A stretch of DNA of 64,000 nt from Olivibacter sp. SDN3 (GTDB lineage Bacteria > Bacteroidota > Bacteroidia > Sphingobacteriales > Sphingobacteriaceae): positions 4,960,001-5,024,000 of the forward strand of contig NZ_CP060497.1 in the NCBI RefSeq assembly GCF_014334135.1, in the 5' to 3' direction. The notes beneath the pieces are model-generated. The model did no database searches. It saw nothing but the letters and a program-made list of their open reading frames with translations, and had not been told where the DNA came from. The position numbers and the translations under genes are program-made. Shown piece by piece: positions 52,045-63,730 of this stretch (its first letter is position 1; each line of letters begins with the position of its first letter).

Positions 52045-52093
52045 GCCAAACAATAGAAAACCCGACGATGAGTCGGGTTTTCTATTGTTTGGC
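52045..52093. terminator. Strong terminator hairpin next to the tRNA-Ser remnant
   Basis: A perfect 22-base stem (GCCAAACAATAGAAAACCCG at 52045 and its complement up to 52093) closes on the loop GATGA. It begins right at the CCA end of the tRNA remnant on the - strand and was probably the original tRNA terminator. Confidence 0.8.
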
Positions 52094-52114
52094 GGAGAGA
52101 GAGGGATTCGAACC
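52091..52114 (-). mobile_element. 3' remnant of tRNA-Ser: left attachment site of the island
   Basis: On the - strand GGTTCGAATCC is followed by CTCTCTCTCCGCCA, the T-loop and 3' acceptor of a serine tRNA with encoded CCA. Sequence further upstream on that strand (above 52114) is AT-rich and not tRNA, so the 5' part is missing. A tyrosine integrase gene starts 186 bases away. This is the classic left end (attL) of an element inserted in a tRNA 3' end; the restored tRNA should lie at the far end. Confidence 0.7.
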
Positions 52115-52299: not shown

Positions 52300-53691
52300 A
52301 TGAAAGGTACTACACGCCTAAACCTCCGCCTTGACAAGGTGAGAAAAGACGGCAAATGCTCTCTGGAAATCATCTATTCAGTCCGGGGTCAGCGTAAATA
52401 CATCTACCCTGGTATTAGCGTTTTCCCTGAGCAATGGGATGACAACAATCAGCGCTTTATAGCTATCGATAAAAAGTCGGCTAAAAAGATCGCTCCCAAC
52501 AGACCCTATTACGAACTATCAGATCGTGACGACATCTCCACCTTTGAAGGAGTCATCTCAGACACTTTGTTACAATTGGACAGAATCGAGAAGAGATTTG
52601 AGGTCAATGGCGAGGCTTTTAGCGCAGAAATGGTTACTGGAGCATTCAAGAGTAGTAAGCCGGGAGCGACAAAAAAAGAGTCTTCTTCCAAGATGGTATA
52701 TGACTTTATTGATAAGTACATTATCGAAAATGCACCAAGTAGAGCCAAGGGCAGCTTAAGTGTTTATAAGGCGCTAAGAAAGCATTTATCGGCCTATGAA
52801 AAGCATACAAGAAAAAAGATACGTTTTGATGAAATGAGCTATTCTTTTATGCAGTCTTTCCATAATTTCTTGATTGAATACGTAACAGACAAAGGAATAA
52901 CCCTCAACAACATCACCATAGCCAAGCAAATAAGTACGCTTAAGACTTTTTTAGGTTATGCAAGGCGACATAATATCCATATTTCGGATGGATACCGAGA
53001 TTATAAAGTCACCCGTCAAAAACTTGAAGTTATAGCTTTTACTGAACGGGAATTTCTCTCACTATACAGACTTGACTTATCTGACGGTACAAACAAAGCT
53101 CCATTAGTAATAGATGACGAAGGAAATGTAACAAGATATATTTCATACGATGCTTTGGCGAAAGTGCGCGATGTATTATGCTTTAGTTGTACAACAGGGC
53201 TTCGCTATTCGGATCTTGAGCAATTACGCAGAACACATATAAAGGAAACAGAGATCAAATTGACGGTTAAAAAAACACGTGAAATGTTGACCATACCACT
53301 TAATGGTTATGCTTACGAAATACTATCCCGTTACAATCACCCATTGTATCCGCTGCCTATCATCAGCAACCAGAAGTATAATCTTTACATAAAGGCCTTA
53401 TGCCGACTTGCCGGCATAGATGATACGGTTGAAATTATCCGTTACAAAGGCGCTGAAAAAGTTACTATTGAATATCCTAAATATGAATTGATTAGCTCTC
53501 ATACCGGACGAAAAACATTTTGTACATTATCACTGGAGCGTGGTGTACCCGCAGAAACTGTAATGGCTACAAGTGGGCACACGGACTATAAATCATTTCA
53601 AAGATACGTTAAGGTCACTGAGGAGCGCAAACGCAACGAAATGCAAAAAGCATGGGGCGCTCCGAAACATCTTAAAGTGGTCAACGAATAA
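52300..53691 (+). CDS. Tyrosine integrase of the island
   Basis: 463 residues. An N-terminal arm-binding-like domain (1-110, LNLRLDKVRKDGKCSLEI, as in Bacteroidota integrases) is followed by the SAM-like core-binding domain (about 125-235) and the catalytic domain. The catalytic residues are Arg302 (CTTGLRYSDL), His401 and Arg404 (SHTGRKTF), His427 (SGHTDYKSF) and the nucleophile Tyr436 (FQRYVK). It catalyses integration and excision of the element at the tRNA-Ser site. The start is ATG 52300, 25 bases after the -7 element. A regulator gene follows. Confidence 0.96.
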   Translation: MKGTTRLNLRLDKVRKDGKCSLEIIYSVRGQRKYIYPGISVFPEQWDDNNQRFIAIDKKSAKKIAPNRPYYELSDRDDISTFEGVISDTLLQLDRIEKRFEVNGEAFSAEMVTGAFKSSKPGATKKESSSKMVYDFIDKYIIENAPSRAKGSLSVYKALRKHLSAYEKHTRKKIRFDEMSYSFMQSFHNFLIEYVTDKGITLNNITIAKQISTLKTFLGYARRHNIHISDGYRDYKVTRQKLEVIAFTEREFLSLYRLDLSDGTNKAPLVIDDEGNVTRYISYDALAKVRDVLCFSCTTGLRYSDLEQLRRTHIKETEIKLTVKKTREMLTIPLNGYAYEILSRYNHPLYPLPIISNQKYNLYIKALCRLAGIDDTVEIIRYKGAEKVTIEYPKYELISSHTGRKTFCTLSLERGVPAETVMATSGHTDYKSFQRYVKVTEERKRNEMQKAWGAPKHLKVVNE

Positions 53692-55045: not shown

Positions 55046-55480
55046 ATGTTATCATCGGAATATAGGATAATATCAATAGAAAACAACAGCCAAAGCATAA
55101 ATCTGCCTGACTGGTTTATTGATGATTACGATAAGTTTAAAAAGGAGGTAAAAGGGAAAACCTCGTTTGGTATTGGCTTTAATATTGAAAAAAAAATTAT
55201 TTCTATCGAAGTTACAATTTCATACCATATAAATGTTAATGACAGTGATTTAGAGTTGTTTAGCGTGAAGGTAAACACTGGTTTCCTTATTTCTAATATT
55301 GATAAATACATTAGAAAGGGAGACGATGGAAATGTAATAGACAATACACTGCTATCCGAATTAACCGCCGTTTCCATGTCTCATTCCAGAGGTATTCAAT
55401 CATTTTTAGTCAGTAATACAGTATTAAAAAACATGTTGCTTCCTAATAAATTACCAAACTTCGATTCTCCAGATTCATAA
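55046..55480 (+). CDS. SecB-like fold protein (tentative)
   Basis: 144 residues. The order of predicted strands and the C-terminal helix (FGIGFNIEKKIISIEVTISY, then FSVKVNTGFLISNIDKYI, then LSELTAVSMSHSRGIQSFLV and a final helix) resembles SecB-like chaperone-fold proteins found in Bacteroidota, where a strand with SRG precedes the last segment. This is a pattern match by eye. It ends the three-gene cassette and a terminator follows after 170 bases. It may chaperone or neutralise a partner from the cassette. Confidence 0.4.
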   Translation: MLSSEYRIISIENNSQSINLPDWFIDDYDKFKKEVKGKTSFGIGFNIEKKIISIEVTISYHINVNDSDLELFSVKVNTGFLISNIDKYIRKGDDGNVIDNTLLSELTAVSMSHSRGIQSFLVSNTVLKNMLLPNKLPNFDSPDS

Positions 55481-58274: not shown

Positions 58275-58304
58275 TAAGAACAATCGGTCTAGTCACCCCT
58301 CCCT

Positions 58305-58575
58305 CCCTAAAATCGACCATGAAGAGTTTTGTAAGTCCATAAAAAAGGGCAAAACCTAACAAAACACAATACTATAAAAATCGATCGCAAAAAGTGCACG
58401 AAGAATTTTGCGAGTCCAAATATATAGCCGTCAAAGAGTTTTCCGCCTCCATAAAAAAAAGTGTCCAGTACGTCGGTTGAGTTTTCTAAATAGCGCTACG
58501 AACGATTTAAAGTATTTTCCGAGTCCATTGAAAAAGGTTCATGTTGAATTCTGCGAGTCCATTCATAAGGGCAAG
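58305..58575 (+). repeat. Five degenerate GAGTCCA repeats
   Basis: Units related to GAATTTTGCGAGTCCATAAA occur with their AGTCCA cores at 58334, 58413, 58446 (CCTCCA variant), 58522 and 58556. Spacings are 79, 33, 76 and 34 bases, so pairs recur about every 110 bases. They lie between two genes and contain no credible ORF. Iterons or protein-binding repeats of a replication or transfer origin are the best explanation. Confidence 0.6.
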
Positions 58576-58585
58576 GAGGTCGATT

Positions 58586-58892
58586 CCGCCAATATTCCCA
58601 CCGCTACTAATAGCAAACCGCCAAACCGCCAAATTTCCGCCAATTACATTTTTTTATAACTAATTGTTTTTTAATGAATTATACTTTAAACCGCCAAACC
58701 GCCAAAACCGCCTATAAAAGCTATTTTCTATTATTATTATATAAATATAACATATACGGCGATTTATATACTATTGTTATTAAATGTTATTTAGTGGCGG
58801 TTTTGGCGGTTTTGGCGGAACTCCATTTAAAACACTGACAGTTAACTTATTAAGAAAACCGCCAAAGTAAAATCATTTTGGCGGTTTGGCGG
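58586..58892. repeat. CCGCC-box array, origin-like
   Basis: Thirteen copies of CCGCC or its complement occur in 307 bases of otherwise AT-rich DNA: + at 58586, 58618, 58626, 58637, 58691, 58699, 58708 and 58859, and - (GGCGG) at 58796, 58805, 58814, 58880 and 58888. Many are spaced 8-9 bases apart by A or T runs. A triplet at 58691-58712 is mirrored by one at 58796-58818, and AAACCGCCAAA (58856-58866) pairs perfectly with TTTGGCGGTTT (58877-58887). Confidence 0.8.
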
Positions 58893-59224
58893 AAACTGTA
58901 CCATTGGTATTTACTTCTATGAAGCCGTTTAATATGCTTTAATTACTACCATAAAAGCTACCATATTTTTTAACTATCTATTTATCAAATATTTAAATAC
59001 AAAATTTAAGAGAAATGTGGATTATAACCTACTTTTTTGACTTTACCGACCTTAATGTCTTAAAGTTATAAATTAACTATTCATAAATACAAATCCGAAA
59101 AGAATAATACATTTTATAACACTATATATCAATCGTTTACATACAAATCGAGTAAAAACAAATGTAACCTATAGGTTTATTAGTGAAACCACAATATCTT
59201 TGAATTATCAAAACATCACACGCT
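58893..59224. other. AT-rich stretch between repeat array and HTH gene
   Basis: No gene. Very AT-rich, as expected of a DNA-unwinding element beside iterons. TATCTTTG at 59195-59202 is a -7 element for the next gene, although no TTG stands at the expected -33 distance. Confidence 0.5.
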
Positions 59225-59497
59225 ATGCTAGTAATTAATAGTAAAGAGGATTTTAAAAGATTGCTTATCGAATCTTTGATTGAATCAGGGATATTGAAGA
59301 GATCAGAGACAGCAACTAAAGATTTAGCTGTTGAAGAGCTTATTGACAATAACACACTGATGGAAAGGCTTAATGTTGCAAGGTCTACGATTATTGAGTG
59401 GCGCAACAAAGGTAAAATTAGGTACATGAAAGTTGGGGGAACGTATAGATATAACTGGAAACATGTCCTTGAGGATTTAGAAAGAAAGGGGGCATAG
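59225..59497 (+). CDS. Excisionase-like helix-turn-helix protein
   Basis: 90 residues. The C-terminal half is a MerR/HTH_17-type winged helix (DNNTLMERLNVARSTIIEWR, NKGKIRYMKVGGTYRYNWKH) as in Xis/AlpA-like and Bacteroidota element regulators; the N-terminal part is a helix. It is first in an eight-gene + strand run. It could direct excision, or bind the adjacent repeats to control replication. Confidence 0.8.
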   Translation: MLVINSKEDFKRLLIESLIESGILKRSETATKDLAVEELIDNNTLMERLNVARSTIIEWRNKGKIRYMKVGGTYRYNWKHVLEDLERKGA

Positions 59498-59498
59498 C

Positions 59499-59762
59499 AT
59501 GAGAAAAGATCTAACCCCCGCTCTCAACTCAGAACATGACAAATATAACGAGGAGAAACTGATTTTCAAAGCGCTATATAAAAACCAGCCGGTTACTCGG
59601 CGTGAGTTATCTAATGCTACCAATATCGAGATAGCTTCTCTGTGCCGTGTATTGTTCAACTTAGTTTATTACACCGGGCAAGTGAAGATAGCGTACCGTA
59701 AAAAATGTCCGAACACTGGACGTACGGTTATGCATTTTGCTTTAAAAAATTGGGAGGGATAA
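59499..59762 (+). CDS. Small winged-helix-like protein
   Basis: 87 residues. LIFKALYKNQPVTRRELSNA followed by TNIEIASLCRVLFNLV has the shape of a winged helix (a domain that separates or recognises DNA), and the end GRTVMHFALKNW gives the wing. It starts one base after the stop of the HTH gene and two bases before the DUF3987 gene, which implies tight co-translation. Probable accessory of the DUF3987 protein. Confidence 0.6.
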   Translation: MRKDLTPALNSEHDKYNEEKLIFKALYKNQPVTRRELSNATNIEIASLCRVLFNLVYYTGQVKIAYRKKCPNTGRTVMHFALKNWEG

Positions 59763-59764
59763 CA

Positions 59765-61150
59765 ATGGCCGGGAGTTTAGTGAAGTCAATGAGCGATTTT
59801 ATCGCAAGATCTGAAAGTATAAAACAGGGTTGTTCATTTCCGATTGAAGTGTTTCCTAAGAAGTTTCAGAAAATCTTAAATCACTACTCATCCATTAAAG
59901 GTTATCCGATAGACTACTTTGGGTCGTCGGTAATAGCGGCATTGTCGGCAAGCATCGGCAGTAATTACTCACTACGAACCATAGACGGATATAAGGTGAA
60001 ATCAAATATATATTTAGCGATAGTCGGTAGTCGAGGCCTGAATAAATCAGAAGCCGTGAATGACGCCTTTAAGCCGGTGGATGAATACACTTCTGAACTC
60101 TATTTGCAATACAAAGAGGAAATGGAGGATTACCGTGAAGCTAAAGAAAATAAAGACGAGGGCGCGATAAAACCGTTGTTTTTAAAACCCATAATAAATG
60201 ATGCTACACAGGAAGCTGTCATAAGTCAGTTAGCGAACAATTATAAAGGTACTACTATAAAGGTCGATGAGCTTGCCGGACTGCTAAAATCATTTAATAA
60301 ATACAGGGAAGGCGGCGACCAAGAATTTTACCTTTCGGCATGGAGCGGCGGATCTTATAGCAAGGAGCGTGTAGGAAGTGATCATGTTTATATAGCTAGC
60401 ATGTATCTTTCAATCGTCGGAACTATACAACCAGCGGTAGCAGAGCAATGCTTTCAAGACAAGGAAGAGTCTGGACTATTTGATAGATTTCTTCTTTGTT
60501 GGCCTGAGCGAACAGTGAAGCCATACCCATCGCATAGATGGTTAGACCCTGCGATTGAGGGGGAATATTCTTCAATGCTAACGCGTCTTCTTAAATTCAA
60601 GTTAAAAACGGGAGAACACATAATACAATTGTCCTATTCTCGAGAATCTGGAGACATTGTGAATAACTGGGTAATGGCGAACATTGATCACGAGAACATA
60701 GATGAAATAACAGAGCGAGAACGCGGTATAAGAGCAAAATTGGATATTTACATACACCGGTTTGCGCTCATTATGCAGATAGCCTACAACGTCTCAGACG
60801 ATCTTATAGACGATGAAATGACTTATATATCCACTGAAGCCGCAACCGCAGCTGTGAGTCTATGTAATTACTTCTTAATCATGGCTGATAGAACTCGGTT
60901 AAAACCAAAATCCGACATGCTGACCGGCAATTGGAAGGAACTGTACGACATGCTGCCAGATGATGGAGCAACATTTAATACGGCGTCTTTTAAGCTTGCT
61001 GCTGAAATGATAGGTATTAGCCCGCGAAGTGCGGAGCGGTGGTTAAAAGATAATTCGCAAAGGAAAGATCCTGATAGGATTTTTGAGAAGATTAAACATG
61101 GTCATTACGCAAAAACATTAAGAAATGACACCAGTAAAGTTAATGGTTGA
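59765..61150 (+). CDS. DUF3987 P-loop protein
   Basis: 461 residues from ATG 59765, which is preceded by GGGAGGGATAACA and lies 2 bases after the upstream stop; a longer frame overlapping that gene is rejected. It has a P-loop GSRGLNKS (88-95) and a Walker B-like TTIKVDELAGLL near 165, then SIVGTIQPAVAEQ near 222 and a helical C-terminus. DUF3987 proteins occur in phages and integrative elements, often near primase or replication genes, and are thought to be helicase-like ATPases. With the repeat array just upstream, this is the best candidate replication initiator. Confidence 0.8.
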   Translation: MAGSLVKSMSDFIARSESIKQGCSFPIEVFPKKFQKILNHYSSIKGYPIDYFGSSVIAALSASIGSNYSLRTIDGYKVKSNIYLAIVGSRGLNKSEAVNDAFKPVDEYTSELYLQYKEEMEDYREAKENKDEGAIKPLFLKPIINDATQEAVISQLANNYKGTTIKVDELAGLLKSFNKYREGGDQEFYLSAWSGGSYSKERVGSDHVYIASMYLSIVGTIQPAVAEQCFQDKEESGLFDRFLLCWPERTVKPYPSHRWLDPAIEGEYSSMLTRLLKFKLKTGEHIIQLSYSRESGDIVNNWVMANIDHENIDEITERERGIRAKLDIYIHRFALIMQIAYNVSDDLIDDEMTYISTEAATAAVSLCNYFLIMADRTRLKPKSDMLTGNWKELYDMLPDDGATFNTASFKLAAEMIGISPRSAERWLKDNSQRKDPDRIFEKIKHGHYAKTLRNDTSKVNG

Positions 61151-61598
61151 GTTGGAGGATTTTAGAGCCAATGTGCCCGAGATCAACGGCAAACGGCAGG
61201 CTATTCCCATTAGAGTGGGAGGTGTTACATGGCCTTGTGTATTTTCCGCTATAAGCGCACTGGTTGATAGGTTTCTAATGGCTCAACATGATCAAAGCAT
61301 AATATGTCAGATGAAATCGTTTTACGAAGTAATATCTGGAAGCGCTATTGAGCTGGATCAAGTAACAGTAGTTGACCCAAATAAACAGCTAAAAAATCTA
61401 TTTAAAGAGATTCAAAGGCTTTTGGAAGACAATATATCTTGTACTGTCGGAGGTGAGCCGGTTTCATGTCTCAAGAGCACTATAAGAGCTATATGGGAGG
61501 GATATAGATGCACATTGGGACGGCAAGAAAACACTTACTGGCAAGATCAGATAAGGAATGTATACGAAATTTTTAATTTAAGCAATTCAGAACAATGA
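61125..61598 (+). CDS. Unrecognised island protein D
   Basis: 157 residues, or 151 if started at the ATG at 61143, which would reduce the overlap with the DUF3987 gene from 26 to 8 bases. Mixed alpha/beta composition: VELEDFRANVPEINGKRQAI, then IRVGGVTWPCVFSAISAL and a helical end. It overlaps the next gene by four bases (ATGA). Function unknown. Confidence 0.6.
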   Translation: MTPVKLMVELEDFRANVPEINGKRQAIPIRVGGVTWPCVFSAISALVDRFLMAQHDQSIICQMKSFYEVISGSAIELDQVTVVDPNKQLKNLFKEIQRLLEDNISCTVGGEPVSCLKSTIRAIWEGYRCTLGRQENTYWQDQIRNVYEIFNLSNSEQ

Positions 61599-62023
61599 AG
61601 AAGAACAAAAAAAACCGATCTAGTAGACGATCATCCAAAATGGGAGGCATCAAAATAACCGACCTGATACCTTCCAAGTACGTCAGGTTAATGATGTCTA
61701 TACAAAACAAATCACACATAAAGGGAATGCCCGATCTCTTTGATCCTGTCGACCTGTACTGCATGTTCATTCACCGAAACGTTAATTTCTTCTTAGGAAT
61801 TCGAAACGGATTTCCAGTGTGTGTTTTCCATGCCGAAGAGATAGGGAAATTCGGGTTTATTATGGACGACATGTTTGCTAGATCAATGGGATACAGAAAC
61901 GCTGACGAAATGGCGGGCAGCGATGAAATGCTGGATTTAGCAAACAACCTATCAGGTACGGGAGAGGAATTTCCAATAGTAGATTCGATGAGAACCCTGC
62001 TAAAGCAAGAAATAAACAAATAA
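61595..62023 (+). CDS. Unrecognised island protein E
   Basis: 142 residues with a strongly basic start (KKNKKNRSSRRSSKMGG), suggesting nucleic-acid binding. The body has ITDLIPSKYVRLMMSIQNKS and LDLANNLSGTGEEFPIVDSM. The ATG overlaps the previous stop. Function unknown. Confidence 0.6.
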   Translation: MKKNKKNRSSRRSSKMGGIKITDLIPSKYVRLMMSIQNKSHIKGMPDLFDPVDLYCMFIHRNVNFFLGIRNGFPVCVFHAEEIGKFGFIMDDMFARSMGYRNADEMAGSDEMLDLANNLSGTGEEFPIVDSMRTLLKQEINK

Positions 62024-62034
62024 AAACAATCAAT

Positions 62035-62727
62035 ATGAACACAGCAATTGAAAAACAAAAAGAAAAGGCTTTTGAGCCTATATTGATCTATGACGGAGTC
62101 AAGGATGCTAATGGGTTTCTTTCAAAATTATCGCTATTAGGGATAGATTTGCGGAAACTGAAAAATGACTTTATAGAATTTGCGGAACCCATTGGTGGGG
62201 TATGGAATAAACAAACCGCTAAAATCGCTATAAATAGTGGAATGACAGCGTTGATAGACAGTTTATGTATAGATTTCATTGGTAAACAGAACAAATACCT
62301 AAGAAATGCCGTAGATAAAGAGCTTGCCCGCCCACGGGAAGAATTTGACGCTAAAGTATATGTTTTTAACCGGGCTGTGGAAAGGTCTAGAATGGATAGC
62401 GTACACGGTTATTACCCAAGCAATTTAACTTCAGCAGACTTCCTGCCCATCAATGATACCGGTGAAATCGTGGTAACAGAGGAATATAAAGCATTGGTGA
62501 AGGAGCAGTTCAATAAATATATAACCAATGAGAAGGATGCCGAAATTTTAACCTTGGTAAAAAACCTATTAAAGGAATGGGACGAAATGAAGTCTAAGTT
62601 GGGGGACTATTCTTATCATCTATTATCTAGTATGAAAACGGATGGTCCTGACGGTTCGACCTTGAAAATGCCTTCAAGTACAACTCTTGCATGGATAATT
62701 GAAGAAAGGAAAAAAACAACTAAATAA
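62035..62727 (+). CDS. Unrecognised island protein F
   Basis: 230 residues, helical and soluble (MNTAIEKQKEKAFEPILIYD; IGKQNKYLRNAVDKELARPR; ILTLVKNLLKEWDEMKSKLG). Twelve bases after protein E. No motif recognised. Position between DUF3987 and small coiled-coil proteins suggests a role in element maintenance. Confidence 0.6.
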   Translation: MNTAIEKQKEKAFEPILIYDGVKDANGFLSKLSLLGIDLRKLKNDFIEFAEPIGGVWNKQTAKIAINSGMTALIDSLCIDFIGKQNKYLRNAVDKELARPREEFDAKVYVFNRAVERSRMDSVHGYYPSNLTSADFLPINDTGEIVVTEEYKALVKEQFNKYITNEKDAEILTLVKNLLKEWDEMKSKLGDYSYHLLSSMKTDGPDGSTLKMPSSTTLAWIIEERKKTTK

Positions 62728-62744
62728 ATAAGGAGGAAATAAAT

Positions 62745-63197
62745 ATGGATTTACATAGAATTGCCCAAAAAGTAGTAGCTGATCAAAAAAAGAAAGAACA
62801 AGAAGGGGCTCAAAAAGCTTCTGCTAGCGAAATGGTTGATCTAATGAAACAGATGGCCGCGGAACTACAGGCTTTAAAGAGCGCGAATCCCACATCCGGT
62901 CAGGCTGATAAATTAAACCAAAGTAGAAAAGAGGATCTTTTACTAGCAATTACAGAATCGAGCAAAGAACACAAGCAAAAGGTATTGAGGAGCTTCGAAA
63001 GGATGAGTTTCACGTCGGACGACGACTTTAACCAATTCCTTGAAGATGAAAAGGCGTACGTGCAAACACTTCAGCAACAGGAATCGAATTCGAAGCTTGG
63101 AAAGGATTTTCCCAAGCCGGGTATACCTGGTAATTCTGGCGTCGCCTCTATTGACGACCCGGTACTTGACGAGGTTATGAAGAATATTCGTATTTAA
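62745..63197 (+). CDS. Unrecognised coiled-coil island protein G
   Basis: 150 residues, Lys/Glu/Gln rich with a long helix (IAQKVVADQKKKEQEGAQKA, SEMVDLMKQMAAELQALKSA) and a flexible end. An AAGGAGG Shine-Dalgarno sequence stands 11 bases before the ATG, which is rare in this window. A terminator hairpin follows directly. Function unknown; a scaffold or adaptor by shape. Confidence 0.6.
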   Translation: MDLHRIAQKVVADQKKKEQEGAQKASASEMVDLMKQMAAELQALKSANPTSGQADKLNQSRKEDLLLAITESSKEHKQKVLRSFERMSFTSDDDFNQFLEDEKAYVQTLQQQESNSKLGKDFPKPGIPGNSGVASIDDPVLDEVMKNIRI

Positions 63198-63202
63198 CAT
63201 TA

Positions 63203-63230
63203 CCGCCCCTGGTAAACAGGGGCGTTTAAT
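63203..63230 (+). terminator. Terminator after protein G
   Basis: Perfect 8-base stem CGCCCCTG/CAGGGGCG (63204-63211, 63217-63224), loop GTAAA, followed by TTTAATTTAA. It ends the DUF3987 operon 6 bases after the stop codon. Confidence 0.8.
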
Positions 63231-63241
63231 TTAATGTAACG

Positions 63242-63730
63242 ATGAATAAAAAAAACAGCCCCCCCCTACTCACCAAAGAACCGGTCGTCATAACCAACAT
63301 GGATGATGTTCAGCAGTGGAAGGCAACTTACCTATCCCTAATACCCGCAGTGGACCTAATTAGGAAATGTTACAATGAGTTGTCTACTGTCACAAAAGAT
63401 AGTTTTTCGCAAGGCACACTGGTTAAAATCTATAAGGACCCGGCCTTTATTCAAGATGTAGTTGACAAAATTGAAAGCCACTACGGCACGAAAGATTTTG
63501 TCTTATATATGGCGAAGGTTGAAAAGCTATATCAAGCGATAGATGCTTTTAAAGGTATAATTAAGCTCGATAAAAACCAGCACAGCAACATTGACGGCCG
63601 ACCATTCGGTAAAGACGATCTCCTACACCCTTCAAATTATCACTTTGATGGCGATAGGCTAGTGTGGTCAGGTCAATACGAAATGTATGTTAAGTATTAT
63701 TTTCGAGAGTACATCATTTGTGAAGATTAA
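63242..63730 (+). CDS. Unrecognised island protein H
   Basis: 162 residues, mostly helical (MDDVQQWKATYLSLIPAVDL, IRKCYNELSTVTKDSFSQGT, VEKLYQAIDAFKGIIK). It begins 11 bases after the terminator, so it either is transcribed by read-through or from its own promoter. No family is recognised. It is the last gene before the right part of the window. Confidence 0.6.
   Translation: MNKKNSPPLLTKEPVVITNMDDVQQWKATYLSLIPAVDLIRKCYNELSTVTKDSFSQGTLVKIYKDPAFIQDVVDKIESHYGTKDFVLYMAKVEKLYQAIDAFKGIIKLDKNQHSNIDGRPFGKDDLLHPSNYHFDGDRLVWSGQYEMYVKYYFREYIICED

Follow-up and report, generated by a model that had tools for sequence, protein, structure and literature searches.

PICI origins always have two sets of iterons flanking an AT-rich region (PMC6092414, in the excerpts drawn on here). 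The origin lies immediately 3' of the initiator gene, and the initiator helicase binds the iterons by its C-terminal domain. A specific attachment site with flanking repeats, helper-phage-dependent induction and packaging are further PICI traits. The SaPI Rep and Cch/Cch2 proteins are of the DUF927 or Primase_Cterm/D5 types, and in the Cch2-CCPol-MP system of SCCmec, which has three AAGTG iterons and its own primase-polymerase, the helicase is putatively self-loading and uses its C-terminal domain to bind direct repeats that lie downstream of the helicase gene (excerpts of PMC7581432).

DUF3987 (PF13148) is by name still a protein of unknown function in Pfam and is rarely mentioned in the open literature; it has been presented as a predicted helicase of mobile elements (PMC5862659, in part). 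The model of the Vibrionaceae PICMI comprises int, AlpA (PF05930/PF12728) and DUF3987 or DUF5906, with insertion by fis, and in PICMI115 deletion of prim, whose family model is DUF3987 and DUF5906, lowered the copy number of the element; the word iteron is absent from that paper (PMC10803314). A search for DUF3987 together with iterons found no paper in the open literature searched, subscription papers and preprints being outside its scope. The cryptic prophage CP4-57 of E. coli has the gene order intA-yfjH-alpA-yfjI.

The window, i.e. the whole stretch of 64,000 nucleotides analysed, covers positions 4960001-5024000 of the single 6.12-Mb contig of Olivibacter sp. SDN3 (Sphingobacteriaceae) and contains part of an integrated island with the following features:

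52092-52114, no strand: attL, an exact direct repeat (23 bp) of the tRNA-Ser(GGA) 3' end
52300-53691, plus strand: tyrosine integrase of the island (Pfam Phage_integrase 2.9e-12, Phage_int_SAM_5 3.9e-14, Arm-DNA-bind_5 7e-9)
58586-58712, minus strand: seven CCGCC boxes, the left half of the array, at 58586, 58618, 58626, 58637, 58691, 58699 and 58708
58713-58794, no strand: stretch between the mirrored triplets, 82 bp, 15.9% G+C
58796-58818, plus strand: right mirrored triplet, GGCGG boxes at 58796, 58805 and 58814
58856-58892, no strand: inverted box pair (CCGCC at 58859, GGCGG at 58880) and an extra GGCGG at 58888
58893-59224, no strand: AT-rich leader ahead of the operon, 24.7% G+C
59225-59497, plus strand: HTH_17/excisionase (AlpA-like) protein, 90 aa (Pfam HTH_17 7.3e-8; PHROG excisionase 4.8e-6; TIGR01764 1.4e-5, below cut-off)
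59499-59762, plus strand: small winged-HTH-like protein, 87 aa (phrog_1123 of unknown function, 2.6e-8; TFIIE_alpha/TrmB weak, below cut-off)
59765-61150, plus strand: DUF3987 putative replicative helicase/self-loading initiator, 461 aa (Pfam DUF3987 1.2e-44; PHROG DNA helicase 8.7e-39)
60905-61147, plus strand: predicted winged helix at the C-terminus of the DUF3987 protein (81 residues), with PRSAERWLKD as its predicted recognition helix

The attR partner of the left repeat is found beyond the window, at 5032401 on the chromosome (72401-72423 in the window frame), within an intact tRNA-Ser (L004:8401-8489). Since the 23-bp repeat is found at the tRNA-Ser end and the integrase lies just inside its left copy, the island is taken to be about 20.3 kb long; its ends were absent from an earlier note on this DNA. 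No empty site was seen among the four congeners searched, nor is one demonstrable, because in them the two flanks and the tRNA match at different places. The island thus shares with PICI an attachment site with flanking repeats, and it has the int, AlpA-type HTH and DUF3987 combination of the PICMI model, whereas its insertion at tRNA-Ser rather than by fis, and its size of about 20 kb against the 6.1 kb of PICMI115, set it apart from the PICMI (PMC10803314, in part). The order int, AlpA, DUF3987 is also that of CP4-57; unlike the window, E. coli K-12 yfjI has neither an adjoining box array nor a recognition helix of the E/K type described below. The island also differs from the PICI/SaPI elements in having a tape-measure-like gene.

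This 1366-aa tape-measure-like protein is encoded in the right part of the island, beyond the window (L004 184-4284, window frame 64184-68284; PHROG tail tape measure 3.7e-25), and it has matches in 17 other genomes of the 151 family genomes, at no more than 42% identity. The five small genes between it and the DUF3987 gene (61125-63730) are almost without family matches, and tblastn matches to them were absent in three of the tape-measure-positive loci. A 144-aa protein (55046-55480) matching the PADLOC candidate model PDC-M64C (2.4e-9) is a possible defence cargo.

Thirteen CCGCC boxes, mirrored three-box clusters at 8-9 base spacing and a hairpin with a perfect 11-base stem had been reported in the earlier note, and all were recovered. 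Exactly 13 CCGCC/GGCGG boxes occur in 58586-58892, eight CCGCC and five GGCGG on the plus strand; 12 of them read CCGCCA, and the aligned consensus is AAACCGCCAA. The last three boxes of the left half form a triplet (58691-58712, spacing 8 and 9), which is mirrored at 58796-58818 with spacing 9 and 9, and the 82 bp of low G+C between the two triplets (58713-58794) is a candidate DNA unwinding element. The inverted pair gives the 11-bp stem (58856-58866/58877-58887) with a 10-base loop. The AT-rich stretch and the operon of two HTH proteins and DUF3987 reported to follow are also present, the second HTH protein having weak family matches only.

The densest other 307-bp stretch of the 64-kb window holds three boxes. 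In first-order simulations with the region's own composition a maximum of eight boxes was reached in 20,000 draws, and with the composition of the in-window part of the island a maximum of four, also in 20,000 draws. The sequence TGGCGGTTTTGGCGG has two matches in its own genome, both within the array, and blastn of 58275-59224 against plasmids and phages gave no match. Left of the array, at 58321-58572, five degenerate copies of a direct repeat of about 30 bp (consensus about AAGAGTTTTGCGAGTCCAT), which are absent from the earlier note, start at 58321, 58400, 58433, 58509 and 58543 (spacing 79, 33, 76 and 34) and represent a decayed tandem unit of about 110 bp adjoining the array.

With a probability of roughly two in three, the array 58586-58892 is the replication origin of the integrated element, of PICI/SaPI layout, whose boxes would be bound by the DUF3987 helicase via its C-terminal winged helix. 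The mirrored triplets around 82 bp of 15.9% G+C are like the pri-rep-ori arrangement of PICI and SaPI, and the earlier note's statement that no described origin of such a motif was known does not hold for the layout, which has a precedent in these published origins (PMC6092414 and PMC7581432, in excerpts). The location is different: instead of following the initiator gene immediately on its 3' side as in PICI, the array sits in the 950 bp that precede the operon, about 330 bp from its first gene and some 870 bp ahead of the start codon of DUF3987 (816 bp if the stop-to-stop frame is taken), and the 3' flank of the window DUF3987 gene has no CGCCA box, unlike that of its relatives. This position, and the fact that most DUF3987 loci and E. 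coli K-12 YfjI are without a strict array, were counted against the origin reading. The helicase family is also another one than the DUF927 or Primase_Cterm/D5 types of SaPI Rep and Cch/Cch2; the SCCmec system resembles the island in its putative self-loading helicase and differs in the family of that helicase, in its iterons and in its primase-polymerase (excerpts of PMC7581432). As for a DnaA-dependent iteron plasmid origin, with DnaA boxes and a RepE/RepA-type initiator, the leader has one DnaA-box-like site (TGTGGATTA at 59016, one mismatch against the consensus), and RepE54 was found with Foldseek only at E about 1.

The DUF3987 protein scores 153.5 bits against the curated cut-off of 27. 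A winged helix is predicted with confidence at its C-terminus, and the model of the whole protein is unreliable (pLDDT 46). The likeliest binder of the boxes is the DUF3987 helicase, via this predicted winged helix, rather than either small HTH protein, as judged from the correspondence of helix and box sequences given below; it would then bind them as the PICI initiator helicase binds iterons, by the C-terminal domain.

Elsewhere, mirrored arrays are in strong excess right next to DUF3987 genes. To count as a strict mirrored array, a non-palindromic 6-mer had to recur exactly, all within 350 bp, in two or more copies spaced 7-13 bp on one strand and two or more on the opposite strand; the interval scored ran from -60 to +320 relative to the stop codon. 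Of 50 DUF3987 genes, 12 have such an array in this 3' interval, as do 3 of 438 other ORFs taken from these loci and from control loci (p = 1.3e-10, odds ratio 46), the 50 being those of 53 loci left after three with short 3' flanks were dropped, and the 12 including L254 and L019, which are 97% identical; one of the three positive control ORFs is the ORF after the DUF3987 gene of L269. The criterion was framed after a k-mer clustering test, and newly fetched loci served as its test on new data: 7 of 51 DUF3987 genes (54 loci less three duplicates) were positive against none of 103 other ORFs, the positives including a pair at 97% identity, L324 and L326, as well as L327, which shares 81-82% identity with both, and 6 of 50 when one 97%-identical copy was dropped (p = 0.001). 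For intergenic gaps of both sets pooled, a control that reuses the same loci and is not independent, the counts were 13 of 57 for DUF3987 against 2 of 321 (p = 4.8e-10; L019, L270 and L017 left out), and one of the latter two gaps lies 212 bp 3' of a DUF3987 gene.

The preceding k-mer clustering test was weak (48 DUF3987 against 40 integrase loci, rank test p = 0.004; p = 0.027, 0.14 and 0.12 at cut-offs 6, 7 and 8). Applied first to whole loci, the mirrored criterion picked out 17 of the 48 DUF3987 loci, four loci of this set being longer than the controls, against 2 of the 40 integrase controls and 1 of 13 other stretches; the flank counts given above carry the argument instead. In a small plasmid/phage set no strict array was seen at any of 11 DUF3987 loci (frames were obtained for 11 of 12, L379 being left out), and loci without one are the majority throughout (38/50, 44/51 and 11/11); the strict criterion misses some arrays, as the box clusters of L331, L012 and L377 fail it. 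The array is 3' of the gene in 18 positives, a set without L019 that includes the kin L324, L326 and L327, and its first box starts at -17 to +89 bp relative to the stop. Of the 70 intervals of 5-20 bp between same-strand GCCA-type neighbours at 15 loci including the window, with spacing unfiltered, 20 measured 8 bp, 30 measured 9 bp and 12 measured 11 bp.

The closest DUF3987 relatives in the sampled family and order genomes are 26-40% identical. At 30 class-level DUF3987 loci three GGCGG boxes at 7-9 bp steps occurred in none, and a single such step in one, so the box sequence is element-specific; other elements have GTGCCA, GGACCA, CGGACA, CGTTCC, AACTGCA and further boxes. CGCCA arrays with 8-, 9- or 11-bp steps were nevertheless found beside the DUF3987 genes of L331, L339 and L107. 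Directly 3' of the gene lie mirrored CGCCA clusters (8 and 11 bp) in L339 and repeated TGGCG triplets (spacing 8 and 9) in L331; these two loci were retrieved via their protein. L107, a Bacteroidia contig picked by its box pattern, has GGCGG boxes at 8-bp spacing inside the DUF3987 gene and ACCGCC boxes 29 bp past its stop. Two mirrored TGGCA triplets (8, 9 and 9, 8) occur in L013. Arrays are therefore present in related DUF3987 elements, the lack of which the earlier note had named as speaking against its origin and initiator-operon reading; this enrichment supports that reading in part, and the place of the window array 5' of the operon is atypical for it.

Among 399 family genomes the three-box pattern matched in eight, the other seven at 9-bp spacing only, as expected of Gly-rich coding, from which these matches may come. 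Further viral pattern scans gave 26 more stretches, none of them comparable, and another scan gave none. A 19-base scan of genome contigs yielded 69 stretches; seven scan loci were viewed, and a DUF3987 gene was noticed in L107.

In one helix class the recognition helix of DUF3987 and the box base correspond: R[ST]xER goes with CGCCA and RTxKR with TGCCA (p = 3.3e-4 over 6 and 8 proteins). The test took 24 of 104 proteins (strict motif, flank of at least 250 bases), with the p-value from the E and K types only and these classes set after part of the data had been seen. With close kin removed p was 0.0022, and because L107 had been picked by box pattern the test is also given without it (p = 7.8e-4; 0.0048 without L107 and kin). 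Five helix-box predictions recorded in advance were all borne out, two of them at loci that are close kin of known ones (L331 of L339 and L322 of L013). The window protein (PRSAERWL) is of the CGCCA type, which fits its AAACCGCCA boxes, and E-type proteins occur in more than one core lineage, the cores of the window and L107 proteins being 16% identical. Helices of D and Q type likewise go with CGCCA (L324, L326 and L325), and three members under the E/K rule, L015, L342 and L361, showed no box enrichment.

The array, its syntax, the strong link of arrays of this kind to DUF3987 genes and the match of helix residue to box base in one helix class are shown here, and beside them a possible course of replication can be outlined. 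The island would excise via its own integrase, and the AlpA-like and small winged-HTH proteins, to go by their families, would control excision and the operon. The DUF3987 putative helicase would then bind the AAACCGCCA boxes with one assembly per mirrored triplet, which is supported by the box/helix correspondence across elements. By analogy with the PICI/SaPI Rep, the AT-rich stretch between the triplets would melt and two helicase rings would load face to face.

It is also conceivable, and judged unlikely, that the boxes are iterons or operators of one small HTH protein (59225 or 59499), with DUF3987 recruited later or merely co-operonic. The array precedes the HTH genes by about 330 bp, a usual position for an operator of that operon, and AlpA, present in the CP4-57 order given above, is a DNA-binding transcriptional activator. 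The arrays of the positive relatives, however, lie directly 3' of the DUF3987 gene, away from the HTH promoter, and the box base tracks the recognition-helix residue of DUF3987, in a comparison that covered the DUF3987 proteins.

A transcriptional operator or attenuator with no role in replication is quite improbable. Its location within the 950-bp gap upstream of the operon and the ability of mirrored boxes to form hairpins, such as that with the 11-bp stem, would suit this function. The gap, however, has no match to a Bacteroidota promoter pattern, in a weak scan whose four window matches are at chance level, and the arrays of relatives follow the gene directly on its 3' side, where they could not serve their own operon as promoters.

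Mirrored repeats and hairpins occur also at partition, transfer and priming sites, and the iteron region of SCCmec is a preferred priming site as well (excerpts of PMC7581432). It is nonetheless very improbable that the boxes serve the element as a transfer origin, for partition or for ssi-like priming: the link is with a helicase gene, and the island proteins scanned, which are part of the island set, gave no recognisable relaxase or ParA/ParB family.

Neutral repeat expansion or composition, for which 8-bp tandem GGCGGTTT units in unrelated genomes and 26 viral triple-box matches, all 9/9 and inside stop-to-stop frames of at least 100 codons, could be cited, is scarcely credible in view of the two orientations, the separated triplets, the AT-rich spacer, the 13 boxes reached in 0 of 20,000 simulations and the specific association of mirrored arrays with DUF3987 genes.

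For the reading of the array as a DUF3987-bound origin, what is new on the best reading is that a PICI-type origin layout goes with another helicase family and with a partial protein-to-box rule. The wider proposal that DUF3987 is a further widespread family of self-loading initiator helicases, with one origin syntax (short boxes in mirrored runs, spaced 8, 9 or 11 bp) and a box partly readable from the recognition helix (E with CGCCA, K with TGCCA), is tentative and falls just short of an even chance. If it is true, the origin of an element, and perhaps its incompatibility group, would be predictable from protein sequence. A conserved syntax with such a rule would give DUF3987 elements a replication mechanism, allow origins to be found computationally and provide a basis for Bacteroidota vectors.

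Some loci showed further array types. L331 (G790) has three near-identical TGGCG triplet units in a row 3' of DUF3987, suggesting a recent duplication of the origin triplet. In L371 (Bacteroides), 3' of a DUF3987 gene that follows a BT4734-like gene, GCTTTA/TAAAGC boxes alternate strictly in 9/13-bp steps, a different array syntax of which the phage contig L373 has a weaker form. The long 8-bp tandem CCGCCAAA arrays of L101 (Methanophagales) and L118 (Paenibacillus) are probably simple tandem repeats. DUF3987 proteins with another C-terminal HTH (KKSTMxRxLKKAI-like) are found in L062, L063 and L014 and have CGTTCC/CGTTTC boxes in common, forming a second helix class which may have a rule of its own.
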